64,000 nt of DNA from Acidobacteriota bacterium (lineage in GTDB: Bacteria; Acidobacteriota; Terriglobia; Bryobacterales; Bryobacteraceae): NCBI GenBank assembly GCA_025354885.1, contig JANXLY010000058.1, positions 1 to 64,000 of the forward strand, read 5' to 3'. The translations under genes were made by a program, and so were the position numbers. Below are positions 477 to 52,820 of this stretch, in pieces (position 1 is the stretch's first letter; each line of letters starts with the position of its first letter). The notes below the pieces were generated by a model. That model had not been told where the DNA came from and made no database searches. It saw only the letters and a program-made list of their open reading frames with translations.

Positions 477-1376
477 CTACTTTGTCGCAATGCTCGCTGC
501 CGGGACCGACACCGTGATGCAGCCGACATCGATGAAGCCATCGAAGCCATCCATCACATGCGCGAACGCGCGCACAAACGCCGGGTCGGTGGCGCGGTAG
601 ACAGCACCCACCGCGGGCTGGTGGCACTTGCCGAATTCATACACCGCCGCATGCCCGTTGCGCACCTGCCACGCCGTCCCGCCGCGATCGGCCAGCAGCA
701 GCGCCACCACGCCGTGCGCGAACAGCTCACCGTCGGCGAGGTAGCTGCCCATCGGTCGCTGGTTGCGGCCTGCGGGCGTCTGCTTTGCCATGCGCGACAC
801 GCCGCCCAACAGCACAGTGGCTTCGTGCGGCAGCCTGGCCACGCGCGTGGTCACCACCGCGACGACATTCGCCGCCATGCGTTCATCGCGGGACCGGCTG
901 TCCCCCGCGCGCGTCTCGTCATCAAAGGCAAACAGGTGTGCCGCACGGCCTGCCTGACGCTGCACGCGTACCCAGTCGATGACCTGCAGCATTGCGTCGC
1001 TTGCGCGTCCATCCTGCTGTGGAATTGGTCGTGACCAATGTGGCGAACGCAGGAGAGCGCGCCGGTCGTCGGGCTTACCTGACGATGCGAGATAAGTGTC
1101 GATCAACGCCTGATCGGCTTGCGGCATCTCCACGCCGATGCTGACGGCACCGCGCTCCTTCAGGAAATGACAGGCAATATCGACAAACGCGCGCGGCATT
1201 TCATTGGTACCGTGCGATTCACCGACCAGCACGATGCGCGCGCGGGTGACAGCCTCCGGAAGCTCGAGTTTGGAATTGCATTGCAGCGGCACCGGCGCGG
1301 GTCGTGCGGCCGGGATCGAAGTGCAGGCGGCAACAACAGCGGCGAGCGTGAACGCGCTCAGCACGCGGCGGCACAT
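477..1376 (-). CDS. ChaN-like (haem-binding uptake, Tiki-type) lipoprotein
   Basis: Start MCRRVLSAFTLAAVVAACTS gives a lipobox; RIVLVGESHGTNEMPRAF and IGVEMPQADQALID resemble the ChaN/DUF399 family. Confidence 0.6.
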   Translation of the reverse strand: MCRRVLSAFTLAAVVAACTSIPAARPAPVPLQCNSKLELPEAVTRARIVLVGESHGTNEMPRAFVDIACHFLKERGAVSIGVEMPQADQALIDTYLASSGKPDDRRALLRSPHWSRPIPQQDGRASDAMLQVIDWVRVQRQAGRAAHLFAFDDETRAGDSRSRDERMAANVVAVVTTRVARLPHEATVLLGGVSRMAKQTPAGRNQRPMGSYLADGELFAHGVVALLLADRGGTAWQVRNGHAAVYEFGKCHQPAVGAVYRATDPAFVRAFAHVMDGFDGFIDVGCITVSVPAASIATK

Positions 1377-1474
1377 CACTCCGACAGCGTGCTGGATTTT
1401 CAAATCCCCCGAAGCCACGAAGCTTCGATTGCGTAGACGATTCAACACAAACAAATCAAATCCCGGGCTGGCAC

Positions 1475-2716
1475 TCATTGACGCTGTCCGCGCAAAGTAT
1501 TCGCCAGCATCGAAAGCACATCGGCAATTTTTCCTGCCGTTTCCGGTGGTGGCAACGGCAGCTTTAGACTTTGCGCCCCGGTTCGTGGATCGCGCTCGAC
1601 CCAGGGATGCGTCGGCGCATCCGGGTTGGCGGCTGCGCCAAGGGCCGCGACCAGTTGCGCGCCAAGCTGGGTCAATGCCTGCCAGGGATCGATTTGACCT
1701 TGCGCCGACGGTTCCCGTGCCGCTTGCGCCACACCCGCGGTGTCTGCCGCCTCGTCAGTGCCTGACGCATTCTCTGCGGCCGCTGCGGGCGCGGATGTCG
1801 CTTCAGGGATGCTCGCCACGCCTGCCGCCTCTTCGGCTGGCGTCATGGTCTCCGCCGCACCCATCTGGCCGGTGACGTTCTCGACTTCTTTCATGAAGCG
1901 GTTCAGTCGTGAGCCGCCCAGTGATATCTCTCCAATACCGCCATCGAGAATGCCTGCTGACAATGATCGCTTGAACGCCAGCACCGAGAGCATGCCCTCC
2001 TCGATGGTTCCCTTGGCGACAAAATTGACAATCTGTACCGGTCGCTTCTGCCCCATGCGGTGGATGCGGGCAATGCGTTGTTCGAGCAATGCCGGATTCC
2101 ACGGCAAGTCCATGTTCACGAGCGTCGATGCATGCTGCAAGTTCAGGCCGGTTGCGCCAGCATCGGTCGAGAGAAACACGCGGCAACCCGGGTCGTCGCG
2201 GAACCGCTCCACCAGCGCCGGACGCTTCTCGGATGGCACACCACCGTGAAAACTCACGTAGCCGATGCCACGCGCTTCCAGCCGTCGAATGACGATATCG
2301 TGCGTACGCCTCCACTGGCTGAATACGACCGCCTTGGCGTCTTGCTGTGCGAACAAGTTATCGAACAGCGCCGCCAACTCATCGGCCTTGACGCCATGAT
2401 CACTCTCCTGATCGAGCAGATACGTGCTGTTGCACGACATGCGCATGTTTTGCAGGGCGCAAGTCAGGCGCCGCTGATCCTGATCCGACAGAAATTTCAG
2501 CTTGCGCCAGCGATTCACGATCTTGGTGACGACCTCCGCGTTTTCCTGGTGGTAGACCATCTGCAGTTCGGTCATCGGCACCATGAGATTCTGGTCGGTG
2601 CGTGCCGGCAACTGGGTCAATACTTCTGACTTGCGTCGGCGAAGCATGATCGGCGCGAGCGTGTGGCCGATTTTTTCCAGTCCGGTGTAGCCGGTGACGC
2701 GCCCGGTTTCGTCCTT
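1475..2716 (-). CDS. SNF2-family helicase, C-terminal half only (truncated at its 5' side by the junction)
   Basis: The reading frame continues upstream of the listed Met (KDETGRVTGYTGLEKIGHTLAPIMLRRRK); helicase C motifs VVFSQW, FLSTDAGATGLNLQ, ARIHRMGQKRPVQIVNFVAKGTIEE; a stop codon appears in this frame just past the junction, and no ATPase N-half is present. Confidence 0.8.
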   Translation of the reverse strand, partial: KDETGRVTGYTGLEKIGHTLAPIMLRRRKSEVLTQLPARTDQNLMVPMTELQMVYHQENAEVVTKIVNRWRKLKFLSDQDQRRLTCALQNMRMSCNSTYLLDQESDHGVKADELAALFDNLFAQQDAKAVVFSQWRRTHDIVIRRLEARGIGYVSFHGGVPSEKRPALVERFRDDPGCRVFLSTDAGATGLNLQHASTLVNMDLPWNPALLEQRIARIHRMGQKRPVQIVNFVAKGTIEEGMLSVLAFKRSLSAGILDGGIGEISLGGSRLNRFMKEVENVTGQMGAAETMTPAEEAAGVASIPEATSAPAAAAENASGTDEAADTAGVAQAAREPSAQGQIDPWQALTQLGAQLVAALGAAANPDAPTHPWVERDPRTGAQSLKLPLPPPETAGKIADVLSMLANTLRGQRQ

Positions 2717-2724
2717 TAATGTCT
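2713..2724. other. probable chimeric/recombination junction between two unrelated genomic backgrounds
   Basis: SNF2 homology ends at KDETG (minus strand, ~2716) and RlmI homology starts at WVYRGEI (plus strand, 2724); abrupt change in base composition and codon style. Confidence 0.75.
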
Positions 2725-3830
2725 GGGTTTATCGAGGGGAGATCCAGGAGGAATTGCCTGAGGGGTATCTCGAGACAGTCCTGCTGGTGGATGAGCGGGG
2801 AAGATTGCTTGGTAGCGCGCTGGTTGATGCCTTGTCGCCAGTGCCTGTGCGTCTGTATTCTCGACGGGAGGAAGCTTTTGATCTGCAGTTGATTGCATCG
2901 CGTCTGGAGGCTGCCCATGCCTGGCGGGAGCGAGTAGTTCGTGATGGTAGTACGGGGTATCGCCTTGTCTTTAGCGAGGCTGATGGCTTAGCTGGATTGA
3001 CGGTGGATCGCTTTGGATCAGCGTTGGCACTTCAGTTGAATTTACGGAATTACGGCCCATTTGCCAGGCAGATTGTAGCTAAGATCGATGGATTGCTTCC
3101 GCAAGGCACTGGAATCAATTGCGCAGTGATTGAACAACAAGGGGTGCGGAGTTTGTTAGTGGGAACAGCAGAGAATTGCCGACCTGTTTATCAATCGAAC
3201 GGATTGAAGTTTGAAGCTGATTTATTGGAAGGGCCGAAGACCGGGGCATTTCTCGATCAACGGGAGAATTATCAGGCGGCTGCAGAGTGGGCAAAGCGAT
3301 TGGGGCTTGCGGGGCGAGGACTGGACCTTTACTCATCTTCGGGCGGTTTTGCGATGAATCTGGCCTCAGGTCTGGCCAAGGTGGATGCGGTAGATTCCTC
3401 TAAGAGTGCAGTGCTACGAATTGAAGCAAACTGCAGGCGGAATGGAATTGGTAATGTTCGAGCAATTGAGGCAGACGTAAAACAATTCTTGCGTGGCTTG
3501 ACTCAAGCGCGCCAGCGATATGAGTGCGTCATCGTAGATCCGCCCGCATTTGCAAAGCAGACGAAACAAAAAGAAGAGGCCACGCGGGCTTATTACGAAC
3601 TGAATGTCAGAGCGTTAAGCGCGGTGGCCCCTTCCGGGTTGTTTGTGACTTGTTCGTGTTCTCACGCAATCAGCGAAAGCGATTTGCTGTCTATTGTGAG
3701 AGAGGCAGCTAGTGAGAGCCGAAGAACACTGAGCATTCTCGAGAAAAGAACGCAGGCATTAGACCACAGAGAAATCGTGACAATTCCAGAAACGAGTTAT
3801 CTCAAGTGTCTCTACTTTGGCGTTCAATAG
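2724..3830 (+). CDS. RlmI/YccW-type class I SAM-dependent rRNA (cytosine-C5) methyltransferase, 5'-truncated
   Basis: WVYRGEI (normally preceded by HP and an N-terminal PUA segment), TGAFLDQREN, LDLYSSSGGFAMNLA, VDPPAFAK, CSCSH; the normal first residues are missing. Confidence 0.8.
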   Translation, partial: WVYRGEIQEELPEGYLETVLLVDERGRLLGSALVDALSPVPVRLYSRREEAFDLQLIASRLEAAHAWRERVVRDGSTGYRLVFSEADGLAGLTVDRFGSALALQLNLRNYGPFARQIVAKIDGLLPQGTGINCAVIEQQGVRSLLVGTAENCRPVYQSNGLKFEADLLEGPKTGAFLDQRENYQAAAEWAKRLGLAGRGLDLYSSSGGFAMNLASGLAKVDAVDSSKSAVLRIEANCRRNGIGNVRAIEADVKQFLRGLTQARQRYECVIVDPPAFAKQTKQKEEATRAYYELNVRALSAVAPSGLFVTCSCSHAISESDLLSIVREAASESRRTLSILEKRTQALDHREIVTIPETSYLKCLYFGVQ

Positions 3831-3850
3831 CCCCCGAGTAAGAGCCGGTA

Positions 3851-4123
3851 CTATTCTGCCTTCTTGCCTTTGCGGAAAGCAGCCCAGCGCTTCTTTTGAG
3901 CTGCGGCAATGCGCATGCGAGCTTCTTCACTGAGTACGCGTTTGCGACGGGTTGGGCCTGCAGCGTGGGCAGGGGCAGATGAGGTAGCAACCGATTTGCG
4001 GCCTGAGAGCAAGCCGCGAACCATTGCCATCTGATCCTCAATACGTTTGCGTTGTAATTCGAGACCTTCCAGTGCTGCTGCGAGCAGCGAGGGGTCTTGG
4101 AGTGATGAAGGGGGACGAGCCAT
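3851..4123 (-). CDS. small basic hypothetical protein
   Basis: 90 aa, Lys/Arg-rich C-terminus SEEARMRIAAAQKKRWAAFRKGKK. Confidence 0.55.
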   Translation of the reverse strand: MARPPSSLQDPSLLAAALEGLELQRKRIEDQMAMVRGLLSGRKSVATSSAPAHAAGPTRRKRVLSEEARMRIAAAQKKRWAAFRKGKKAE

Positions 4124-4170
4124 TGTTGATTGTTCCTTAATTGAATGTTACAGCTTTGACCATAAGCATA

Positions 4171-4620
4171 TCAAAACAATTTTCCAGAATCGATCAAAAT
4201 AGTTATAGGGCCATCATTAACCAACTGAACCTGCATGTGAGCGCGGAACTTGCCGGTGGCGACAGGAGTGCCGAGGCTTTGGATGGTGGAGGCGAGTGAA
4301 TTGAACAAAAGCTGGGCGGCTTCTGGCAATTCTGCAGCGTCGAAAGAGGGTCTGTTTCCCTTGCGTGCGTCCCCAAACAAAGTAAATTGACTGACAAGAA
4401 GAATGGCACCAGCGACTTGGCGCACATTCAGATTCATCTTGCCGGCATCATCTTCAAAGATGCGGAGCTCGCATAGCTTGTTTGCAATGTAGTCGACCTG
4501 CTGCTGGCTATCGCCTTTGCCAACTGCGGCAAGTACAAGAAGACCGGAGTCAATGCTGGCGATAGTTTCGCCCGCGACTGAGACGGATGCGGAACTTACG
4601 CGCTGGACTACAGCCCTCAT
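4171..4620 (-). CDS. dtd: D-aminoacyl-tRNA (D-Tyr-tRNA) deacylase
   Basis: MRAVVQRVSSASVSVAGE, LLVSQFTLFGDARKGNRPSF, PVATGKFRAHMQVQLVNDGP; start set at Met 36 of the listed ORF. Confidence 0.95.
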   Translation of the reverse strand: MRAVVQRVSSASVSVAGETIASIDSGLLVLAAVGKGDSQQQVDYIANKLCELRIFEDDAGKMNLNVRQVAGAILLVSQFTLFGDARKGNRPSFDAAELPEAAQLLFNSLASTIQSLGTPVATGKFRAHMQVQLVNDGPITILIDSGKLF

Positions 4621-6707
4621 AGAGATTGGGCCTTTGATAGCGACTCGGACCAAATGTTGAGACGACGGCGGAAGACCGGGTTCTGACTCAGATCGTTGAG
4701 GTTTGAGGCGATGCGATGTTGCCAATTGGGTGACTCAGAAGTGGTACCGGGAAGGTTTTGCTGGTCCTGCTCGCCGGTGAGTTCTTCGAGGTTGATGAGT
4801 CGCATCTGAGACGGCGATGCGGCGAGAAAACGACAGAGAGCAGCAAAGAAGACATGCGGGTCTGCTGCTTCCGGATGAATCTGAAAGGCGTTACGGAGTT
4901 GTGAGATGGCATGAGAGCGGGCAGAACGGGCATCGGGGAGTTCGCTCGGATTGAGGATTCCGGCTTGCACTCTTGCATCGAGATCCTTGCCGGATAACCA
5001 GCCGTCAAAGGTGGGAAGATCATGGGTTGTAAAAGCAGCGATAGCTTGTTGGGGGTATTCGGATGAGGAGCGGAATTGATCGCCAGTTCGCTCAAACAGG
5101 ATGAGCCGGTAGCTGAGTATGCCGAAGTCATCGAGAGCCTTGCGAAAGTAATCGGGCACGGTACCCAAATCTTCACCTACAACGATGAGATTTCCGCGTT
5201 TGCTTTCGAGTGCGAGGATGCGAAGGAGATCCTGGAAATTGTCCCTGACATAGGCACCGTCGCGAGCACTCATGCCGTCTGGAATCCAGTAAAGGCGGGC
5301 GAGGCGCATGACATGATCGAGACGAATTGCACCCGCAGAGCGTGAGGCGCAGCGGATGGATTCGATGAAATAGCGATAGCCGGAATCTGCGTGCCGTTGG
5401 GGATGAAGGGCGGGGAAGCCCCAGTCCTGTCCATTTTCGTTGAAGTCGTCTGGCGGAGAGCCGACACGGACTCTGGCAGCAAAGAGATCCTGGTAGGCCC
5501 AATAATCGGCACCAACGCGATCCGTTGCGAGTGCGAGGTCGTGATAAAGGCCGAGGGAATAGCCGAGGGACTGGATGTGCTTGTGCGCGAGGTCGAGTTG
5601 TTGCTCGAAACGCATTTCGATGAAGGCGAGGAAATCGATTTGCCGTGCGAGTTTGAGCTTGAGTGCAAGGGATGCTTCGGAATTGGGGGACTGAAAGGCG
5701 AGCGGCCAGTGGTGCCAGTGCCAGGCGTTCGGATCGCGACGGTGAAAGTAGCGATCGAAGGCCATGTAGGTGCAGTAGTTCTCAAGCCACGGCCCGCGGA
5801 GATCACGGTAGGATTCGAGTTCCGTGGAAGCGTGCTTCTTGAATTGCCTATAAAGGAGGAGGAGAAAGAAGGTCTTGATGCGAGCGACCTTTTCGTAGGC
5901 GACGAAATTCGCCTCACGCAGGGAAGTGAGCTGGGTGTTTATCGGAGTTGAACTGCGGAGGCGTTGAATCGCAGGGGAAGCAGCGAATTCCGGGATACGT
6001 TCTATGTCGAGATAGAGGAGGTTATGAGTGAAGATACTGAGCGGCAGATAGGGGCTGGTGTTGTAAGGCGCACGGTTGTGAATGGCATGGAGAGGGTTGA
6101 GGGCGATGAAGTCGAGGGGTGTTTGTTCACGGATGAGCTTTGCGAAATCGGTGAGGTCAGTGAGATCGCCACAACCCCAGTTGCGTTGGCTTTGAAGCGA
6201 AGGGAGGAAGCAGTTGATGCCGTTGAGGGGTTGAGAGTCGGGAGGAAAATAGCAGCGGTCTGGAGTGAGGATCCAATGGATTCGAGCCTGTCGATGGAGT
6301 GTTCTTATGGTGAGAGTATGGTAGCCGTGAGTTGCCAGATTATTGAGGATTGAGTCGCCCAGACGGCAGTAGGTGAGTGCGGAGTTTTCCCATTCGATCA
6401 GAAGGTCGACTGGAGCTAGCTGCTCTTCGGGTGTGAGCTGGAGCTGGAGCGAGGAAAGAGGGGTGGATGCGTTTTCGACGAGAGTCAGATGGGGAGTGAG
6501 TTTTGCGGTGGAAGCGGAGTTGCTGGATTCGAGATAACGATTGAGTTGGCTCGTGTTGTCGAGATCGATGTTTGTACCGGTGAGTGAAGCGGCGATGGCA
6601 TTGGCTGTTTCAACTGAGACATGGCGAAGATGCCCCCAGATGGTCTGGTAGCTGAGTTCGAGGCCGAGTTGAGCGGCGAAGGTGTTGCGTGGATCGATTG
6701 AATTCAG
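4617..6707 (-). CDS. malQ: 4-alpha-glucanotransferase; probable CTG start
   Basis: The frame stays open upstream of the ATG at 5765 and encodes MalQ motifs (LSYQTIWGHLRHVS, NCFLPSLQSQRNWGCGDLTDL, LNPLHAIHNRAPYNTSPYLPLSIFTHNLLYLDIERIPEF, YRDLRGPWLENYCTYMAFDRYFH, IRLDHVM, VVGEDLGTVP, TTHDLPTF); 4-nt overlap with dtd. Confidence 0.9.
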   Translation of the reverse strand: MNSIDPRNTFAAQLGLELSYQTIWGHLRHVSVETANAIAASLTGTNIDLDNTSQLNRYLESSNSASTAKLTPHLTLVENASTPLSSLQLQLTPEEQLAPVDLLIEWENSALTYCRLGDSILNNLATHGYHTLTIRTLHRQARIHWILTPDRCYFPPDSQPLNGINCFLPSLQSQRNWGCGDLTDLTDFAKLIREQTPLDFIALNPLHAIHNRAPYNTSPYLPLSIFTHNLLYLDIERIPEFAASPAIQRLRSSTPINTQLTSLREANFVAYEKVARIKTFFLLLLYRQFKKHASTELESYRDLRGPWLENYCTYMAFDRYFHRRDPNAWHWHHWPLAFQSPNSEASLALKLKLARQIDFLAFIEMRFEQQLDLAHKHIQSLGYSLGLYHDLALATDRVGADYWAYQDLFAARVRVGSPPDDFNENGQDWGFPALHPQRHADSGYRYFIESIRCASRSAGAIRLDHVMRLARLYWIPDGMSARDGAYVRDNFQDLLRILALESKRGNLIVVGEDLGTVPDYFRKALDDFGILSYRLILFERTGDQFRSSSEYPQQAIAAFTTHDLPTFDGWLSGKDLDARVQAGILNPSELPDARSARSHAISQLRNAFQIHPEAADPHVFFAALCRFLAASPSQMRLINLEELTGEQDQQNLPGTTSESPNWQHRIASNLNDLSQNPVFRRRLNIWSESLSKAQSL

Positions 6708-15044: not shown

Positions 15045-16286
15045 ATGTTTACATCATTTTCAACTGCCCTATCCGCCCTCAGCGCGCACTCAACTGCCGT
15101 CGATGTAGTCGGAAACAATCTTGCGAACCTGAATACTCCTGGCTTCAAGGCGAGTACGGTTTCGTTTTACGATCTCGTTACGCAATCACTTGGAGCCGGC
15201 CTCGGGGATACCCAGGTCGGATTTGGCGTAGGGCGTCCTATCACGCTTCGGAATTTCTCACAGGGTGCGATTCAGGTCAGTAGCGGACCGTTGGATGCAG
15301 CAATCCAGGGCGACGGATTCCTGATCTTGAAAGGGCAACAGGGACAAACGGTATATTCGCGTGGTGGCAGTCTCATCGTGGACAAATCGGGAAACCTCCT
15401 GACAGGAAAGGGCTACAAAATCCAGGGTTGGACCAATCAAGGAAACACTCTTGACACAACGGGTCCTGTAGGGGACATCGTAATTCCAGTAGGTTCCATC
15501 AAGCCTCCAGTTGCCTCGACAGCATTCCAGTTCGACATGAACCTGAATGCTGCTGCCAGTCTTGGGCCCCCGCCTGAAAGTTTCCGGACTTCTATTGAAA
15601 TCTTCGACTCACTTGGCACCAGCCATGTGGTGTCTGTTGCTTTCACCAAGTCGGCAACGCCGAATGCCTGGGATTACAGTATTTCGATTCCAGATGCTGA
15701 TGTCGCAGCACCCGTTGCTCCTCTCACTGGCACCATGCAATTTGACAGTAACGGGAAGCTGACGTCGCCTGATGCTGTTACTCCAATCAGCTTTGCCATT
15801 GCAGGCTTGGCAAATGGCTCTTCCGATATCAATTTGAACTGGGGAATCTATAACGGACTCACCCCACGCATTACGCAGTATGCGCAGCCGTCTGCGGTAA
15901 GCGCAAACTCACAGGATGGTCAGCCTTCCGCGCAGTTGATTCGAGTCGGGGTAGGGGATGGGGGCAGGATTCTTGCTCAATATTCCAACGGGGTTCAGTC
16001 GGCTGTGGGCCAAGTCGCTATGGCTTCGATTCGAAATCCGGAATCACTGGTTGCCGTTGGCGATAGCGCATTTCAACTGAGCGAGAAAAGTGCTCTGCCT
16101 GCAATTGGAACCTCTGGCACTGGCGGCCGTGGTTCGATTCTGGGCGGGGCGATTGAGGCTTCGACAGTTGACATCGCTAGAGAGTTTACAAACCTGATCA
16201 TCTACCAGCGTGGGTATCAAGCGAACACGAGAGTAATCACAACAGTTGATGAGATCAGCCAGGAAACGATCAACCTGAAGCGTTAA
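15045..16286 (+). CDS. flgE: flagellar hook protein FlgE
   Basis: TALSALSAHSTAVDVVGNNLANLNTPGFKAS; LIIYQRGYQANTRVITTVDEISQETINLKR. Confidence 0.96.
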   Translation: MFTSFSTALSALSAHSTAVDVVGNNLANLNTPGFKASTVSFYDLVTQSLGAGLGDTQVGFGVGRPITLRNFSQGAIQVSSGPLDAAIQGDGFLILKGQQGQTVYSRGGSLIVDKSGNLLTGKGYKIQGWTNQGNTLDTTGPVGDIVIPVGSIKPPVASTAFQFDMNLNAAASLGPPPESFRTSIEIFDSLGTSHVVSVAFTKSATPNAWDYSISIPDADVAAPVAPLTGTMQFDSNGKLTSPDAVTPISFAIAGLANGSSDINLNWGIYNGLTPRITQYAQPSAVSANSQDGQPSAQLIRVGVGDGGRILAQYSNGVQSAVGQVAMASIRNPESLVAVGDSAFQLSEKSALPAIGTSGTGGRGSILGGAIEASTVDIAREFTNLIIYQRGYQANTRVITTVDEISQETINLKR

Positions 16287-16292
16287 TTTCTT

Positions 16293-16556
16293 ATGGCCTC
16301 AGCACACATGCAGCATCTCGAGCAATTCGCGCATTACCTGGATATGCCACTAACGGTTGAGGCCGTTCTTGACCAGAAGACGATGACAATTTTCGAAATC
16401 CTCGCTCTGGAAGAAGGAAGCGTAATCAAGCTGAATCGCTCTGCCGGGGAGAACATAGACCTCATCATTGGCGGCACTTCTGCTGCCTTTGCGGAGGTTG
16501 TAATTATCGACGAATCCATGGGCGTTCGAGTGACGGACCTGGCTTCAGAAGGCTAA
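16293..16556 (+). CDS. fliN: short FliN-type switch protein (SpoA domain)
   Basis: PLTVEAVLDQKTMTIFEILALEEGSVIKLNRSAGENIDLIIGG. Confidence 0.85.
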   Translation: MASAHMQHLEQFAHYLDMPLTVEAVLDQKTMTIFEILALEEGSVIKLNRSAGENIDLIIGGTSAAFAEVVIIDESMGVRVTDLASEG

Positions 16557-16568
16557 CGGAGAACTGCG

Positions 16569-16844
16569 ATGTGGAAGAAACTTTTAAAGCTTTGGGAGGA
16601 CACGGCATTGCGCCGTGCAGCTCAGCAAAGCGGACAAGCCCGGACGAAGATCAATTTGGCAGGCCAAAAGTGGTTTGGTTCGGGAGAATGCCTCCGTATC
16701 GTCGAAATTGAGACGGAGGGCGGCAGCTACAGAATTGCCATATGGAATGGCAAAACATCAAGCCAGATGGTCGAGCTCAGCCGAGGAGTTCCGCTTGAGA
16801 GTCCAGCCCTGCTTGCGCGTTCGGTCGGCGGAGGAGTTGCTTGA
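16569..16844 (+). CDS. FliO-like protein (position-based)
   Basis: 91 aa between fliN and fliP; LRIVEIETEGGSYRIAIWNGKTSSQMVELS resembles the FliO soluble domain. Confidence 0.5.
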   Translation: MWKKLLKLWEDTALRRAAQQSGQARTKINLAGQKWFGSGECLRIVEIETEGGSYRIAIWNGKTSSQMVELSRGVPLESPALLARSVGGGVA

Positions 16845-17551
16845 AGCGCTGGCTTATCTTGTTTGCACTGAGCCCAGCACTGCTGGCGGCTCCGGTGTCG
16901 GCAGCTAACGCTGAGGCTGGTGGCACTGCTTTGCGGCTTGCGATTCAACTCACCCTCGCTGCGCTCGTGCCAATGTTCTTTGTGACGCTGACGCCGTTTT
17001 TGAGGATCAGCGTTGTACTTCATTTCCTTCGACAGGCACTTGGAACCCAGACCGTTCCTTCAAACCAGGTGGTGATCGCGCTGGCTTCTCTTCTGACCTG
17101 CCTGTCGATCACTCCGCAATTGACTGCAATCTATGAAGGCGTCATTCAACCCTACAACAAAGGCACGATCACAGAAGAGAAGGCCCTCGCCGCTGGCGGT
17201 GCGCAGATGAAGAGCTATATGGTGCCGTTTCTTGGCGAGAAAGAAATTGCCCTGATGCTTCGCGTTTCACATAGTGCAGCCCCAAAGAGTCCCGCAGATC
17301 TGGCCTTTCCAGTGATTGCTGGCGCTTACATGCTGAGCGAGTTGAAGAGCGCTTTCAAGATCGGGGTCCTGCTCTACATGCCGTTCCTGATTATTGATCT
17401 GATTGTTTCGGCTGTGATTGTTACGCTTGGCATGATTCAGCTTCCCCCGGTGATGGTCTCCGCCCCGTTCAAAATTCTGATCTTTGTGCTTGCAGATGGC
17501 TGGACTGTGATTATCGATGCGGTGATGAAGTCGCTTGAGGTAATGCGCTGA
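16841..17551 (+). CDS. fliP: flagellar type III export protein FliP (TTG start)
   Basis: FVTLTPFLRISVVLHFLRQALGTQTVPSNQVVIAL; LPPVMVSAPFKILIFVLADGW. Confidence 0.96.
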   Translation: MKRWLILFALSPALLAAPVSAANAEAGGTALRLAIQLTLAALVPMFFVTLTPFLRISVVLHFLRQALGTQTVPSNQVVIALASLLTCLSITPQLTAIYEGVIQPYNKGTITEEKALAAGGAQMKSYMVPFLGEKEIALMLRVSHSAAPKSPADLAFPVIAGAYMLSELKSAFKIGVLLYMPFLIIDLIVSAVIVTLGMIQLPPVMVSAPFKILIFVLADGWTVIIDAVMKSLEVMR

Positions 17552-17820
17552 TGGAGACCGTTGTTGCTGTCGAAATTGTGCGCAACGCGATTCTCACTTC
17601 GATCCTGATTGCTGCGCCGCTTTTGGGCATCTGTCTGATCTGTGGCATCTTCTTCAACCTGATTCAGGTGGCAACTTCCATCCAGGACCCAGGTTTTAGT
17701 GCAATTCCCCGCTTCGCTGTGTGTGCTTTCGCTTTTCTCCTGCTACTTCCCTGGATGCTCAACCAGATGTCCGGTTTTATCGCCCGTACAGCAGAAATGA
17801 TTCCAAGGATTGCCCGATAG
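17551..17820 (+). CDS. fliQ: flagellar export protein FliQ
   Basis: LIAAPLLGICLICGIFFNLIQVATSIQDPGFSAIPRF. Confidence 0.94.
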   Translation: METVVAVEIVRNAILTSILIAAPLLGICLICGIFFNLIQVATSIQDPGFSAIPRFAVCAFAFLLLLPWMLNQMSGFIARTAEMIPRIAR

Positions 17821-17822
17821 CG

Positions 17823-18575
17823 ATGCCCCCTATTGAATCAGCAGCCGCATTGTTCGCTACGGAATTGGCTCGGGCCGGGACTGCTGTTGGCGTGTTGCAT
17901 TTGCCCGGATTCCGGCAGTTGCCAACTTCGGCGAGGGCTTTTCTTGCTCTGTGTATTGCCTTCGCCTGTTTCTCGGCCAAATGGGCAACAGCCGGTTCGA
18001 CGGAGCTTGCCGTGGGAGAGTTTTGGTTGGTCTGCGGCCGCAATCTGGTTGCGGGACTGGTGGTGGCCCTTTGCTGGAATGTTGTGCTCGAGGCTTGCGC
18101 GCTCGCAATACAGCTTGCGAGTATCCAGTCTGGTCTGAGCTATGCCTCGATCATCGATCCGACCAACGATACGGAAAGCGGATCACTGCTGAGTATTACG
18201 CAGTTCTGTGTGCTCCTGACTTTTCTCGCAGCGGGCGTGCATCTCGAATTTCTTGGGTTACTGCTTGAATCGGATTCACTTTGGGTGAGGTTGAGTGGGA
18301 CAGGTGTGATCGTAGGCGTGCTCAAAGCAATACTGGGGTTCAGTTTCAGAACTGGAATACGCCTGGCCGCCCCATTCATTGCCAGCATGTTGCTGCTCGA
18401 TTTTGCCTCTGCGCTGGGAGCCCGCTTCGCCGATCGATTCCAGCTCAGCATGCTGCTATTCCCGCTAAAGTGGGCGGCGACCCTCGCGATCCTTCTGGCG
18501 TCTACCGTGACCCTGCATTATCTCGAGGCAGGGTTGGCGAAGCAGGCAATTGGCCTGTTGGGGGGGGCGCGTTAA
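17823..18575 (+). CDS. fliR: flagellar export protein FliR
   Basis: Hydrophobic protein, LPTSARAFLALCIAF, SYASIIDPTNDTESGSLLSITQFCVLLTFLAAGVH; between fliQ and flhB. Confidence 0.92.
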   Translation: MPPIESAAALFATELARAGTAVGVLHLPGFRQLPTSARAFLALCIAFACFSAKWATAGSTELAVGEFWLVCGRNLVAGLVVALCWNVVLEACALAIQLASIQSGLSYASIIDPTNDTESGSLLSITQFCVLLTFLAAGVHLEFLGLLLESDSLWVRLSGTGVIVGVLKAILGFSFRTGIRLAAPFIASMLLLDFASALGARFADRFQLSMLLFPLKWAATLAILLASTVTLHYLEAGLAKQAIGLLGGAR

Positions 18576-18578
18576 GTT

Positions 18579-19643
18579 ATGCCGCAGAACGGGGAGAAGA
18601 CTGAAGACGCTAGTCAACGAAAACTAGAGAAGGCGCGTGAAGACGGCAAGATTGTTTCCAGCCGCTACCTCGTAATTGCTGTGCAGTTCATTGCTGGCTT
18701 TCTTTACTTCAGCGGCGTTAATGAGCACGTGGGGCCTGGGTTGCGGCATTGGAAGACCTGGCTCGGCTCTTCGTTTGATGCAGCACTTCAAGGCGATCAG
18801 ATGCTTGTGCCCAGTTTGCACTGGACCAAAGACGCACTACTTTATTTCTTTTGGGCTGGTGCGGTAACTACTGGATCGGTGTTGGCTTCGCAACTGGTTC
18901 TGAGTCAGGGCTATATCAGCTTGAGCCGTGCCAAGCCCGACTTTTCGAAGGTGTTCAGCACTGGACGTCTGGGAAATCAAATGAAGGAAGGGCTGAAGTC
19001 ACTTCGCGCGAGTTTACTGATCCTCGTGTTGGCAGTGATTGCCTTGGCGCTCTATTGGCAGGAGCTTTTGAGCTGGAGCATCTTTCTCGCCCGGCTCTCT
19101 GTCCTTGGTCAGGTCTTTGAGCAATCCAGACAGTTTTTCGGGGCAGGGAAGCTGTGTTGTCTTGTCTTTCTTCTCATGGGCGCGGGCGACCTCATGATGG
19201 CGATGCGAAAGCACGGGTCAGAACTCAAGATGTCCAAGCAGGATTTGAAGGAAGAGTTCAAAGAGGGAAACGGCAATCCGGAAGTGAAGGCCAAGATCCG
19301 CCGGTTGATGAAGGAATTCGCAGGCAAGCGGATGATGTCGCAGGTGCCGAACGCGACCGTTGTGATCACGAATCCCACGCATTATGCCATTGCAATCCAG
19401 TACAACTCCGAAGAGATGAGCGTGCCGGTCGTGCTTGCGAAAGGCATGGACCACGTTGCGCTGCGTATTCGAAAAATCGCGATGGATCGCGAGATTCCGA
19501 TTATCGAAAACCCGCCTCTAGCACAGGCGCTTTATAAGTCGGTTGAAGTTGGCCAGGAGGTTCCGATGCACCTCTATCGCGCTGTTGCTGAAGTGTTGGC
19601 CTATGTTTACCGCGTGCTCGGACGCAATGCTGCCCGTTATTAG
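18579..19643 (+). CDS. flhB: flagellar export protein FlhB
   Basis: EKTEDASQRKLEKAREDGKIVSS; ATVVITNPTHYAIAIQY with the NPTH autocleavage motif. Confidence 0.97.
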   Translation: MPQNGEKTEDASQRKLEKAREDGKIVSSRYLVIAVQFIAGFLYFSGVNEHVGPGLRHWKTWLGSSFDAALQGDQMLVPSLHWTKDALLYFFWAGAVTTGSVLASQLVLSQGYISLSRAKPDFSKVFSTGRLGNQMKEGLKSLRASLLILVLAVIALALYWQELLSWSIFLARLSVLGQVFEQSRQFFGAGKLCCLVFLLMGAGDLMMAMRKHGSELKMSKQDLKEEFKEGNGNPEVKAKIRRLMKEFAGKRMMSQVPNATVVITNPTHYAIAIQYNSEEMSVPVVLAKGMDHVALRIRKIAMDREIPIIENPPLAQALYKSVEVGQEVPMHLYRAVAEVLAYVYRVLGRNAARY

Positions 19644-19648
19644 ACCCC

Positions 19649-21796
19649 ATGAACCCTTCACTTCCACTTTCTCAGAAACCAATCGCAGCGCTGCGGACGA
19701 GCGGTGCTCCAGAGCAGGCGAGACCCATCTTCAGCTGGCAAATGTTGCGCAAGGCGGAAGTTGGAGTGCCCCTGGCGGTAATGGGCATTCTGATGGCGAT
19801 GATACTGCCCTTGCCCGCAATGCTTCTGGACCTGCTCATCTCGGCCAATATTGCCGTCAGCGTTCTCGTCTTGCTCGTGTCCATGTACATCCTGAAGCCG
19901 GTTCAATTTTCCATTTTCCCGTCAGCGCTCCTGTTGCTGACACTTTTCCGGCTGGCCCTGAATATTTCGTCCTCTCGGCTGATCCTGATGTATGGAAATC
20001 TTGGCACCTCTGCTGCCGGCGATGTGATCGAATCCTTCGGCCAGTTTGTGGTTGGCGGGAGTTTTATTATCGGCCTGGTCATGTTTCTCATCCTGATCGG
20101 CATCCAGTATGTCGTTATCAATCACGGCGCAGTTCGTATTTCGGAAGTGACGGCCAGGTTTACGCTCGATGCATTGCCGGGCAAGCAGATGTCGATTGAT
20201 GCTGACCTGAACGCAGGATTGATCGATGAGGCCGAAGCCAAGGACCGACGTAAAAAACTTGCGCAGGAGACGGAGTTTTATGGAGCGATGGATGGTGCGA
20301 GCAGGTTCACGCAACGAGATGCTGTCGCCAGCATTTTGATCCTTCTCATCAACGTTTGTGCAGGGTTCCTGATTGGTGTCCTGCAATACGGAATGGATCT
20401 TGGCAAAGCTTTCGAGACCTATACAATTCTCACGATCGGCGATGGCTTGGTGACGGTGATTCCGGCACTGATGATCTCGCTTGCTGGTGGACTGATCGTG
20501 ACACGGGCCTCGAGCGAAGGACAGCTCGATTCAGAGATTCGCCGTCAGTTGTTTGTCAATCCAGAGCCAGTTGCATTGGCTGGACTTGTGCTCGTGCTAC
20601 TGGCGCTTGTCCCTGGTTTGCCCAAGATTCCATTCCTTGGACTGGGGGCAGCAGCTCTTTATGGAGCAAAGCGGCTGGTTGAAAAGAAACATTTCAGCGA
20701 CATGGCGAAACCGGAGCCCGTTGTCGCACCGAGCGCGAAAGACAATATCGATTCGATGTTGCGCGTGGATACGGTTGCCGTTGAAGTAGGTCTTGGGCTG
20801 GTGCGCCTGGTGGAGGGTGGAGGTCAGAGTACACTTCTGCAGCGGATCTCTGGTGTACGTCGACAGATGGCCTCTGATCTGGGTTTCGTACTTCCTGCGG
20901 TTCGAGTTACAGATAATCTCTCACTGCGGGCGACCGAGTATCGAATTCTCATCAAAGGCAATGAGATGGCGCGTTTTGAGATGATGCGTGGCTACGAGTT
21001 GGCATTGCTTTCTGTAGACCCGAAAGAACGCCACAATTCTCAATTGGCGGCGAGGCTGACGGCCCAGGGCGCGATCCCGGCCAAAGAGCCAGCCTTCCAG
21101 CTGGATGCCCTATGGGTGCCGACAGCTTTGGTTGAGACTGCCCGTATGGAGGGCTGTACGATCGTCGACGCAGCCAGCATTGTTGGTACACATTTTGCAG
21201 AAACGATGAAGCGGAGCACCGCCGAAATTTTCACCAGGCAGGACGCGAAACGCTACGTGGATCGAGTTGCCGAGGAGACGCCAAAGCTGGTGGAGGATTT
21301 GGTCCCTAAATTGCTTCCATTGAGTACTGTGCAGAAGATATTGCAGAATTTGCTACGAGAACGCGTTTCAATCCGGGATGGCGTTTCCATTCTGGAAGCA
21401 ATGAGCGAAGGCGGGGCGATGACGCGGAACCCGACGCTGATTACAGAATTCGTTCGACAGTCGATTCGACGCACTATTACAAGGCAACATTTGAGTGCAG
21501 CAAACGATCTGAACGCCTGGCTCCTGAATCCGGAGCTGGAGCAGGAGCTTGAGGCTTCTGTCGAGCACGGTGAGTTCAACAGCCACCTGACTGCGGGCCC
21601 GGCAAAAGTGCGCGATCTGCTTTCGCGGTGCAAACAGGTTTTTGAGAATCCGCTTGCCTCGGGTGTGATTCTGGCTGGTTCCAATGCCCGCTTCTTCATA
21701 CGCCAATTGACTGAGGCTTCGTTTCCCAATCTGAGCGTGGTTTCCCATTCCGAAATCGCCTCGGGGATTCAAGTCAACTCGCTGGGACAGATTTAG
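19649..21796 (+). CDS. flhA: flagellar export protein FlhA
   Basis: LPLPAMLLDLLISANIAVSVLVLL; ARFTLDALPGKQMSIDADLNAGLIDE; GDGLVTVIPALMISLAGGLIVTRAS. Confidence 0.97.
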   Translation: MNPSLPLSQKPIAALRTSGAPEQARPIFSWQMLRKAEVGVPLAVMGILMAMILPLPAMLLDLLISANIAVSVLVLLVSMYILKPVQFSIFPSALLLLTLFRLALNISSSRLILMYGNLGTSAAGDVIESFGQFVVGGSFIIGLVMFLILIGIQYVVINHGAVRISEVTARFTLDALPGKQMSIDADLNAGLIDEAEAKDRRKKLAQETEFYGAMDGASRFTQRDAVASILILLINVCAGFLIGVLQYGMDLGKAFETYTILTIGDGLVTVIPALMISLAGGLIVTRASSEGQLDSEIRRQLFVNPEPVALAGLVLVLLALVPGLPKIPFLGLGAAALYGAKRLVEKKHFSDMAKPEPVVAPSAKDNIDSMLRVDTVAVEVGLGLVRLVEGGGQSTLLQRISGVRRQMASDLGFVLPAVRVTDNLSLRATEYRILIKGNEMARFEMMRGYELALLSVDPKERHNSQLAARLTAQGAIPAKEPAFQLDALWVPTALVETARMEGCTIVDAASIVGTHFAETMKRSTAEIFTRQDAKRYVDRVAEETPKLVEDLVPKLLPLSTVQKILQNLLRERVSIRDGVSILEAMSEGGAMTRNPTLITEFVRQSIRRTITRQHLSAANDLNAWLLNPELEQELEASVEHGEFNSHLTAGPAKVRDLLSRCKQVFENPLASGVILAGSNARFFIRQLTEASFPNLSVVSHSEIASGIQVNSLGQI

Positions 21797-48123: not shown

Positions 48124-48201
48124 AGCTCGAATTCGATGGCTTCCAATATGACTTTTTCAATGGCATTCTCGATGGTTTTGATGAAACCGAGGAATTTACG
48201 T

Positions 48202-50175
48202 ATGTCTTATCTCAGTAACGCTCAAAAGCTTCTGTCCTTTGCATTGGTGGGCATTCTGGTGCTACCTGCGCCAACCCCACTCGCTGCCCAGACGATGAAT
48301 GTCGTCGACCTCAGCATGACCATTGGCAAGAGCCTGGTGATCGACTACCCAGTCGAAATCGGACGTATCTCGACTTCGAGTCCCGAAGTTGTGGATGCTG
48401 TTCCCGCCACCTCCAAAGAATTCCTCCTCCACGGCAAGGGCCATGGAGCGGCGACTGTCGTGGTTTGGGCCAAATCCGGTGCCAGAACCATGTATAACGT
48501 CACCGTGGAGCACAACGTGGATCCAATCCGCAAGCTCATGAGCGAGACCTTCCCCAATGAAGACATTCGCGTCCAGAGCGGTCGAGATTCGATCACCCTG
48601 GTGGGTCGTGTCTCAAGCAAAGAAGTCGCAGACCGTGCCGTTGCGATTGCGACCCCGCTCGCGAGAACTGTAGTTACGAACCTGCAACTCGCTCCTGCCC
48701 CGGTTGAGCAGCAGATCATGCTGCACGTCAAGTTCGCTGAATTGAACCGAAGTGCCGGTATGCAATTCGGCGTCAATCTCCTGAGTACGGGCGCAACGGG
48801 TACGATCGGTTCGACATCCACGAATCAATTTTCGTCTTCCAACACCTCAACCATCCGAAGTACAGGCAGCAATGGCGTAGTTCAGCCGACAACCTTTAAT
48901 CTTACGGATGCGCTCAACATATTTGCCTTCCGGCCCGATCTCAATTTGGGTGCAGTAATCCGCGCTCTCCAGAGTCAGGATGTCCTGCAGATTCTTGCTG
49001 AGCCCAACCTCACAACACTCAATGGCAAAGAAGCCAGCTTCCTTGCTGGTGGTGAGTTCCCAGTACCAATCCTGCAAGGCGGCGGCAATGCCGGCGCGGT
49101 CACAGTTCAGTTTCGTGAATACGGAATCCGCCTCAATTTCATTCCGCAAATCACGGCGAGCGGCACGATTCGCATGTACGTCAAACCTGAAGTTTCCACC
49201 ATCGATTTGTCAAATGCCGTCTCCTTATCGGGATTCACCATCCCCGCCTTGGCAACCCGCCGCATCGAGACCAATGTCGAACTTAAAGAAGGCCAGAGCT
49301 TTATGATTGCCGGCTTGATCGATGATCGCGTTACCGAGCAGATGTCCAAGATCCCTGGTCTGGCGAACATCCCGATTCTCGGCAACCTTTTCAAGAGCCG
49401 CCTCGAGCGTAAGTCCAAGACGGAACTGATTATCATCGTAACGCCTGAAATCGTCAAGCCTTACAATGCAGACGATAAACTGCCAGTTCCAGAATTCCCG
49501 AAGGATTGGTTGCAACCGTTCAAGGTCACCAAGAAGATAGCCGAGCCGATTAAGCAAAGCTCCGCTGCAACTCAGGTCAAGAAAGCCGAGGCTGACACTA
49601 AGAACCCCTTCCTGTTCTGGAAGAATTCGAAGAAGGTCGCTCAGGCAACTTCCGGCACTCCTGCGGTCCAGGACGCCGCAGCTCAATCCGACCAGGTCAG
49701 TGATGCTGGCACCGCTTCGATGAACGCTGCTGCGCCCGTGTTTGCCCCGATTGCTGGTACAGCCTTGACCAACTCCGTTGCGCCAAGCCCAAGCTCGGCA
49801 AATCCGGATACAAGCCTTGCCGCCAGCCCTGCTGCACCTGCAAACCCTGTAGCTGCCAGCCCTGCTGCCGCCGACTCCGGCTCGCCTAGCCCCGAACCAA
49901 ACGTTTCTGCCCCGACTTCCTCTGCCCCGACTTCTTCTGCCCCGACTTCTTCTACACCGACGGCACCCGCACCGACCGCACCTGTAGTCGTACAACCGAC
50001 CCCCGAGTCGCCCATTACTGTCATCGAAGCGCCTGGCGCTTCGGTCCCTCAGCCTCATGGCAAGGCCTTGCCTCCTACACCGGTGCGCCGAGCAGCCGTG
50101 TCCGCTTCTTCCCCTGCTGCGTCAACTCTCAGCGCCATTCCGGATCAAACCGTCGTTGCCGGGGGCGGGAACTAG
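48202..50175 (+). CDS. cpaC: Tad/T2SS secretin CpaC with long Pro/Ala/Ser/Thr-rich C-terminal extension
   Basis: GKSLVIDYPVEIGRISTSSPEVVDAVP; ILAEPNLTTLNGKEASFLAGGEFPVP; KSRLERKSKTELIIIVTPEIVKP. Confidence 0.93.
   Translation: MSYLSNAQKLLSFALVGILVLPAPTPLAAQTMNVVDLSMTIGKSLVIDYPVEIGRISTSSPEVVDAVPATSKEFLLHGKGHGAATVVVWAKSGARTMYNVTVEHNVDPIRKLMSETFPNEDIRVQSGRDSITLVGRVSSKEVADRAVAIATPLARTVVTNLQLAPAPVEQQIMLHVKFAELNRSAGMQFGVNLLSTGATGTIGSTSTNQFSSSNTSTIRSTGSNGVVQPTTFNLTDALNIFAFRPDLNLGAVIRALQSQDVLQILAEPNLTTLNGKEASFLAGGEFPVPILQGGGNAGAVTVQFREYGIRLNFIPQITASGTIRMYVKPEVSTIDLSNAVSLSGFTIPALATRRIETNVELKEGQSFMIAGLIDDRVTEQMSKIPGLANIPILGNLFKSRLERKSKTELIIIVTPEIVKPYNADDKLPVPEFPKDWLQPFKVTKKIAEPIKQSSAATQVKKAEADTKNPFLFWKNSKKVAQATSGTPAVQDAAAQSDQVSDAGTASMNAAAPVFAPIAGTALTNSVAPSPSSANPDTSLAASPAAPANPVAASPAAADSGSPSPEPNVSAPTSSAPTSSAPTSSTPTAPAPTAPVVVQPTPESPITVIEAPGASVPQPHGKALPPTPVRRAAVSASSPAASTLSAIPDQTVVAGGGN
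49909..49955 (+). repeat. tandem 15-bp repeat (GCCCCGACTTCTTCT x ~3) in cpaC
   Basis: Encodes APTSS-APTSS-APTSS-TPTAP. Confidence 0.8.
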
Positions 50176-50199
50176 ATTCTCTAGCTAAGGTCGACAACG

Positions 50200-51417
50200 A
50201 TGAATTCACAATCACTTGGATCGAATGGAATGGAGCTCACCGCGATCCTGATTTGTCAGGATCGCGAGCTAGCCACCGTCTTCACTCGTTCTGTTGAGAA
50301 TTCACGATCCTTTCAGATCATGGCGGATCTCAAAGGCTATCCACCAAGGCAAACTCTTGAGATCCGCTTACGCCAGGTTCAACCGGATGTCGTGCTGATC
50401 GATCTGGTTTCGAGTCTCGATGCAGCTTGCGAATTGATTCAGATCATCACGCAAGTTTCGCCATTGACGCACATTATAGGCCTACACAATGCCAATGATT
50501 CTGATGCTCTTTTGCGCTCGCTCCGGCTCGGTGCCAGTGATTTCCTGTACTCTCCTTTTGATCCTGCCGCTCAGCTCGATGCTGCAGATCGATTGCGGCG
50601 TCTGAAGGAACCGGATCAGCCAGCCGACCGCGAACTGGGCCGGGTGATTGCATTTGCCAGTTCAAAGCCTGGCTCCGGCGCATCCACGCTCAGTGCGCAG
50701 ACCGCGTTCACGCTCAAGAAACTTACTGGCCGTCGTGTTCTACTCCTCGACCTCGACTTGATGGGCGGCACGATTGGCTTCTATTTGAAATTGAATCATG
50801 CTTATTCGATGCTCGATGCGATCGAGCATTCTAGTCGACTGAATCCCGCAGTCTGGAGCTCGATGATCGCCCATTGCGGGGGTATCGATATTCTCCCCGC
50901 TCCTGATGCTCCAGTTTCGGCTGAAGTGCCGGGCGATCGGCTGCACAGCGTTCTTCAATACGCACGAATGCTTTATGACTGGGTTGTTGTGGATTTACCA
51001 GCTATCTTTTATCGCCCAAGCCTGTTGATGCTGACCGAAGCCGACTACATGTTTCTCGTTTCTACTGGAGAGTTGCCCAGCCTGCATCTGGCCCGTAAAG
51101 CGATCACAATGTTGACCCAACTCGGGCTGACCAAGGATCGCTACAAGCTGCTCGTGAATCGCGTCAACAAGCGCGACGGTATCGGCCTCGCCGACCTCGA
51201 AAAAATATTCAATTCTCCCGTGGATGCAATGTTTCCCAACGACTATTTTTCTCTTCACCGTGTGGTTACTCTTGGCCAGCCCCTCGGTGCAGACTGCGAG
51301 CTCGGGAAGGCCGTGGAGGGCCTTGCCCGCAAAATCTCGGGCAGCGGAGTTGCTGAAAAAAAGTCGAAGTCGTCAAGCATGCTTGAGGCGGCTCGCCCCG
51401 CCATGTCCCAGACCTGA
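50200..51417 (+). CDS. cpaE: Tad pilus localisation ATPase-like protein CpaE/TadZ
   Basis: Receiver-like N-terminus; GRVIAFASSKPGSGASTLSAQTAFTLKKLTGRRVLLLDLDLMGGTIGFYLKL. Confidence 0.9.
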   Translation: MNSQSLGSNGMELTAILICQDRELATVFTRSVENSRSFQIMADLKGYPPRQTLEIRLRQVQPDVVLIDLVSSLDAACELIQIITQVSPLTHIIGLHNANDSDALLRSLRLGASDFLYSPFDPAAQLDAADRLRRLKEPDQPADRELGRVIAFASSKPGSGASTLSAQTAFTLKKLTGRRVLLLDLDLMGGTIGFYLKLNHAYSMLDAIEHSSRLNPAVWSSMIAHCGGIDILPAPDAPVSAEVPGDRLHSVLQYARMLYDWVVVDLPAIFYRPSLLMLTEADYMFLVSTGELPSLHLARKAITMLTQLGLTKDRYKLLVNRVNKRDGIGLADLEKIFNSPVDAMFPNDYFSLHRVVTLGQPLGADCELGKAVEGLARKISGSGVAEKKSKSSSMLEAARPAMSQT

Positions 51418-51458
51418 ACCAGGCGAATCGCGGAAATGGATTATAAGGATTCTGAACA

Positions 51459-52820
51459 ATGAGTACCTCTCTAGATAGCGGATCGAAAACACAACTGAGC
51501 TGGGAGCAACGGCTTCTGAAGAATGCCGGAAAACCCAAGGTGCAGCTCAAGCCTGAGTATCAGGAACTGAAATTCACGCTGCACCGAAAACTCCTCGACA
51601 AGATCAACCTCGAGGCTCTTGCGACGATCGATAACCAGCGAGTCCGTGGAGAAGTTCGCCAGGCCTTGATTACCTTGATTGACGCCGAGCCGACTCTTCT
51701 CAGCGCGCTTGAGAAGCAGCAGATCTGCGATGAAGTTCTCGACGAAGTGTTTGGCCTTGGTCCGCTTGAAGCAATGCTTCAGGACCCCACGATCTCGGAT
51801 ATTCTGGTCAACACCCATAAACAGGTTTATGTTGAGCGCAAGGGCCTGCTCGAGCTCACCAATGTCACCTTCCGCGACGACCAGCATCTGCTCCGCATCA
51901 TCGACAAGATTGTGAGCCAGGTCGGTCGCCGCATCGATGAATCAAACCCGATGGTCGACGCTCGTTTGCTCGACGGTAGTCGCGTGAACGCAATCATTCC
52001 TCCCCTCGCAGTCGATGGCCCCCTGCTCTCGATTCGCCGCTTCTCAACCGACAAGCTCATGCCTCCCGATCTGGTAGATCGCAAGGCCATGACCAAAGGC
52101 ATGATGGAGTTGCTTGAGGCCGCAGTCAAAGCCAAGCTGAACATCATCATCGCCGGTGGTACGGGTGCCGGGAAGACCACTCTACTTAACGCACTCAGCT
52201 TTTTCATCAGCCCCAAAGAGCGCATTGTCACCATTGAAGACGCAGCCGAATTGCAGCTTAAACAGCCGCACGTGGCCCGCCTCGAAACTCGCCCGGCCAA
52301 TCTCGAAGGCCACGGCGCCATCCGCCAGCGTGAACTGTTGGTCAATAGCTTGCGTATGCGCCCGGATCGCATCGTCGTCGGCGAAGTCCGCGGTGAAGAA
52401 GCTCTCGACATGTTGCAGGCCATGAATACGGGTCACGATGGCAGCTTGACAACCGTCCACGCCAACACGCCGCGTGATGCCGTCTCCCGTCTCGAAGTCA
52501 TGGTCAGTCTTGCCAATTCCAATATGAAGCTGGAATCAGTCCGTCAGCAGATTTCAAGTGCAGTGAATCTCTTCGTACAGGCGGCCCGCCTGAGCGACGG
52601 TTCCCGCCGCGTTACTTCGATCACCGAAGTAACGGGTATGGAAGGCGAAATTATTACGATTCAGGATATTTTCGTGTTTGAAAAACGAGGCTTGTCTCCC
52701 GAGGGCAAGGTGCTCGGACGATTTGCAGCAACCGGCATTCGCCCAAAATTTTACGAAAAGCTTCTGGCCGCAGGCATCCGTCTGCGCCCCGATCTGTTTG
52801 ACGAAGTCGAAGAGGTCTAA
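51459..52820 (+). CDS. cpaF: Tad secretion ATPase CpaF/TadA
   Basis: NIIIAGGTGAGKTTLLNALSFFISPKERIVTIEDAAELQL; RPDRIVVGEVRGEEALDMLQAMNTGHDGSLTTVHANTPRDA. Confidence 0.97.
   Translation: MSTSLDSGSKTQLSWEQRLLKNAGKPKVQLKPEYQELKFTLHRKLLDKINLEALATIDNQRVRGEVRQALITLIDAEPTLLSALEKQQICDEVLDEVFGLGPLEAMLQDPTISDILVNTHKQVYVERKGLLELTNVTFRDDQHLLRIIDKIVSQVGRRIDESNPMVDARLLDGSRVNAIIPPLAVDGPLLSIRRFSTDKLMPPDLVDRKAMTKGMMELLEAAVKAKLNIIIAGGTGAGKTTLLNALSFFISPKERIVTIEDAAELQLKQPHVARLETRPANLEGHGAIRQRELLVNSLRMRPDRIVVGEVRGEEALDMLQAMNTGHDGSLTTVHANTPRDAVSRLEVMVSLANSNMKLESVRQQISSAVNLFVQAARLSDGSRRVTSITEVTGMEGEIITIQDIFVFEKRGLSPEGKVLGRFAATGIRPKFYEKLLAAGIRLRPDLFDEVEEV

Follow-up and report, generated by a model that had tools for sequence, protein, structure and literature searches.

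Contig ends are a usual site of bad joins, and interspecies chimeric contigs are familiar from draft and metagenome assemblies. The contig considered here, C359, resembles them in several respects: it carries a foreign piece at its end with a shift in composition, the join lying 2.7 kb from that end; two genes are cut at one point; and the true continuation is found on a second contig whose end overlaps it exactly. Compared from sequence, C359 differs in nothing notable from such contigs. One of the two cut genes resembles the RlmI-like 23S rRNA cytosine-C5 methyltransferases (NCBIfam NF053718, PRK15128), in which a PUA-like domain is followed by a SAM-dependent methyltransferase domain, and the match of its ORF in the window covers almost all of NF053718, from position 16 onwards. 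Unlike those genes, it is split over two contigs, and since it scores below the equivalog cut-offs the assignment does not fix the exact target base. The other resembles the bacterial SNF2-family helicases of Proteobacteria, to whose C-terminal half it is up to 84% identical, although the window holds the C-terminal 414 residues only.

The window, that is, the whole stretch of DNA analysed (64,000 nucleotides), comprises bases 1-64000 of C359. The contig is 68,386 bp long, and the draft genome to which it belongs totals 6.6 Mb in 431 contigs, with completeness rated at 98.8% and contamination at 5.4%. Since window base 1 is contig base 1, the foreign piece is exactly the contig end. We conclude that C359 is almost certainly chimeric: a 2.7-kb proteobacterial fragment has been attached within rlmI, the break falling at 2719/2720, and the sequence that truly lies upstream has been left as the end of a second contig, C242. 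The features concerned are:

1 to 2719: foreign, proteobacterial fragment, in all likelihood misjoined to the contig (GC and tetranucleotide outlier, proteobacterial SNF2, one copy at the contig end)
34 to 426, minus strand: 130-aa ORF in the foreign fragment, without Pfam or NCBIfam match
477 to 1478, minus strand: ORF of the foreign fragment, ChaN-like by a Cofac_haem_bdg match that falls short of the gathering score
1475 to 2719, minus strand: C-terminal 414 residues of an SNF2-family helicase, cut at the junction (Helicase_C 8.9e-24, SNF2-rel_dom 5.8e-07)
2694 to 3830, plus strand: hybrid called ORF, nine antisense SNF2 codons and then the RlmI-like methyltransferase from 2721
2719 to 2720: junction, almost certainly false, where the sequence parts from both C242 and the SNF2 relatives
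2720 to 2832, plus strand: 113 bases identical to the C242 end (C242:18283-18395; exact match), which carries what is almost certainly the true upstream sequence
2720 to 5765: genuine chromosome in genus-conserved order, with the rest of rlmI (plus strand), a small ORF at 3851-4123 (minus), dtd (minus) and malQ (minus)

The left piece and its affinities

The minus-strand frame from 1475 to 2719 is open right up to the junction, and its 414-residue product matches the end of the SNF2-related domain together with the Helicase_C domain. Relatives were drawn from species genomes and the best 80 of 296 were kept; 78 of these 80 carry a Proteobacteria label (top identity 84%), the remaining two being metagenome bins labelled Thermoflexus and Nitrospirae. 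Within its own genome and genus the fragment finds about 34% identity at best elsewhere, with short stretches up to 40%, and some order-level relatives reach 42-46%. The left piece occurs once in the genome, at the contig end. Judged by these affinities it is proteobacterial in origin, as the earlier note had proposed when it read the left 2.7 kb as part of a different genome.

That note had also remarked on a sharp change in base composition, and a shift at the junction is indeed present by GC and by tetranucleotide frequencies. GC content is 61.3% in the left piece versus 54.7% on the right side, where none of 235 equal-sized stretches exceeds 57.3%, and the tetranucleotide frequencies of the two sides correlate at 0.70, whereas each of 118 control stretches reaches at least 0.73. 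Composition-corrected tetranucleotide z-scores (0.35 versus 0.41 +/- 0.095) are non-discriminating at such a length.

The helicase is truncated at the junction. Its relatives run about 400 residues further N-terminally than the window fragment, the upstream frame staying open for 414-496 more codons in nearly all of the 30 that were checked (in the exceptions L043 and L060 the frame extends to where the fetched DNA begins, and in the exception L049 it has 240 codons), and the motif HRLGPTWKLLHEHQVKDE-GRVTGYTGLE spans the point at which the window fragment breaks off. A search for the N-terminal half across the contigs of the genome found it absent, the matches obtained being to other SNF2 proteins at 32-36%, and a search of the same genome for the rest of the donor likewise found none. 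Seven other genomes of the genus all lack a counterpart of the ChaN-like ORF. Narrowing the donor through the neighbours of the SNF2 gene was also tried and abandoned, the ChaN-like and 130-aa ORFs being unmatched in the fetched surroundings of the 80 relatives.

A foreign fragment could also reach rlmI by recent transfer. Proteobacterial DNA would then lie within rlmI in some cells of the sampled population, htpX-rlmI would be uninterrupted in others, and both branches would have been assembled. Such a polymorphism would also yield the two branches that are seen in the assembly; nothing else that we found speaks for it, and we regard it as highly improbable. No recombinase or transposase is present among the ORFs examined in 1-2719, there is one junction only, at which genes are cut, and the other side of the fragment is simply the end of the contig. 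A plasmid origin was rejected, the only plasmid matches being short, 71-79% identical and confined to the helicase, a result that also counts against such an insertion.

The junction and the overlap with C242

SNF2 homology is clear as far as 2716, where it had earlier been said to stop. The following codon, 2717-2719, encodes Leu at a position where the relatives have mostly Val and sometimes Leu or Ile, and these three bases are the only ambiguous ones at the break. Since the SNF2 frame runs to 2719 and the RlmI-like frame runs from 2720, the break falls at 2719/2720, within a few bases of the position first suggested.

On the plus strand from 2720 lies an RlmI-like methyltransferase minus its first residues, the abrupt start that the first reading had described. 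When the genome was searched with window positions 2400-3000, a second match came to light: the final 113 bases of C242 coincide with window 2720-2832 at every position, and the two sequences part immediately before 2720. The frame on C242 is open upstream of the overlap and supplies the missing N-terminus in frame (MKLGRKASQRIEKGG/VWVYRGEI...), which aligns to the start of each of seven RlmI proteins from the genus. With its N-terminus on C242, the RlmI-like gene has PUA-like and SAM methyltransferase domains over its full length, PUA_3 and Methyltrans_SAM both scoring above cut-off.

The ORF called at 2694 is accordingly a hybrid, unfit for annotation. Its GTG start sits in antisense helicase sequence, and its first nine codons (MTRPVSSFN), where about ten had been estimated, derive from that sequence.

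Upstream of rlmI, C242 carries the order rpsD-rpoA-rplQ-hsp20-htpX (htpX, hsp20 and rpoA assigned by Pfam; rplQ and rpsD named from sequence). Because rpoA and S13 are each present in one copy in the genome, both on C242, this contig is part of the same genome. Nor do their single copies point to large-scale proteobacterial contamination of the bin, and this we counted against a chimera; a foreign piece of 2.7 kb, however, needs no such contaminant.

Gene order across the genus

In all seven same-genus genomes hsp20-htpX-rlmI lies in one piece. Upstream of it rplQ is found in six of the seven and rpoA in five; downstream of rlmI, the counterpart of the small ORF at 3851-4123 follows in six and dtd-malQ in five. 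In genomes without the full block the contig or the fetched DNA stops short, except in G001, where a search of 4 kb ahead of hsp20 found no rplQ. Neither the SNF2 gene nor the other left-hand ORFs have a match in these regions of the seven genomes. The right-hand RlmI is 55-71% identical to its counterparts in the genus, so that, placed separately by homology, the left side is proteobacterial and the right side belongs to the genus. Since the block order is kept across the genus, a conserved block is merely divided here between C242 and C359. The earlier note had favoured an assembly chimera as the simplest reading, and the exact 113-base overlap and the htpX-rlmI order in seven of seven genomes support it.

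The same comparison bears on the converse arrangement, in which the C359 junction would be real chromosome and the end of C242 the misassembly. Logic permits it, and we found nothing in its favour. The order rpsD-rpoA-rplQ-hsp20-htpX-rlmI is consistent with the other genomes of the genus, among them G006, which is assembled in four contigs, and neither the reading frame nor the protein sequence is interrupted at the C242-C359 join. We give it virtually no credence.

The spacing between rplQ and hsp20 varies, although the block is otherwise conserved: it is about 1.3-3.2 kb in four of the same-genus genomes (L027, L030, L031 and L032) and less than 0.2 kb in L026, L029 and C242.

Origin of the join and correction of the contig

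If C359 is chimeric, as we conclude, the false join would have been made during library preparation or assembly. A chimeric molecule or read seems somewhat likelier than a shared repeat or a repeat-driven graph error, because the two parents have no visible sequence in common where they meet; shared sequence was considered as the cause, and comparison of the continuation expected from the SNF2 relatives with the rlmI side revealed none. A fixed assembler overlap was also considered. The starts of C242 and of another contig, C47, share 141 identical bases, unequal to the 113-base overlap, and since the two lengths differ no k value is inferred.

These two contig starts (L003:1-262 and L124:1-262) align over 262 bases, with the first difference after 141. 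Their common start resembles the last part of a duplicated EF-Tu gene, and a repeat of this kind at contig ends is ordinary.

The significance of the junction is one of data quality only, and the artefact is useful solely for correcting the contig: C359 needs cutting at 2719/2720, and C242 belongs ahead of 2720. The genes in 1-2719 and the hybrid ORF should be taken neither as this organism's own nor as evidence of gene transfer. The genuine part of the contig, in which we saw nothing odd, carries flagellar genes (a hook/rod FlgE-F-G-type protein and FHIPEP/FlhA) and a secretin with a T2SSE-type ATPase at 15045-21796 and 48136-52820.
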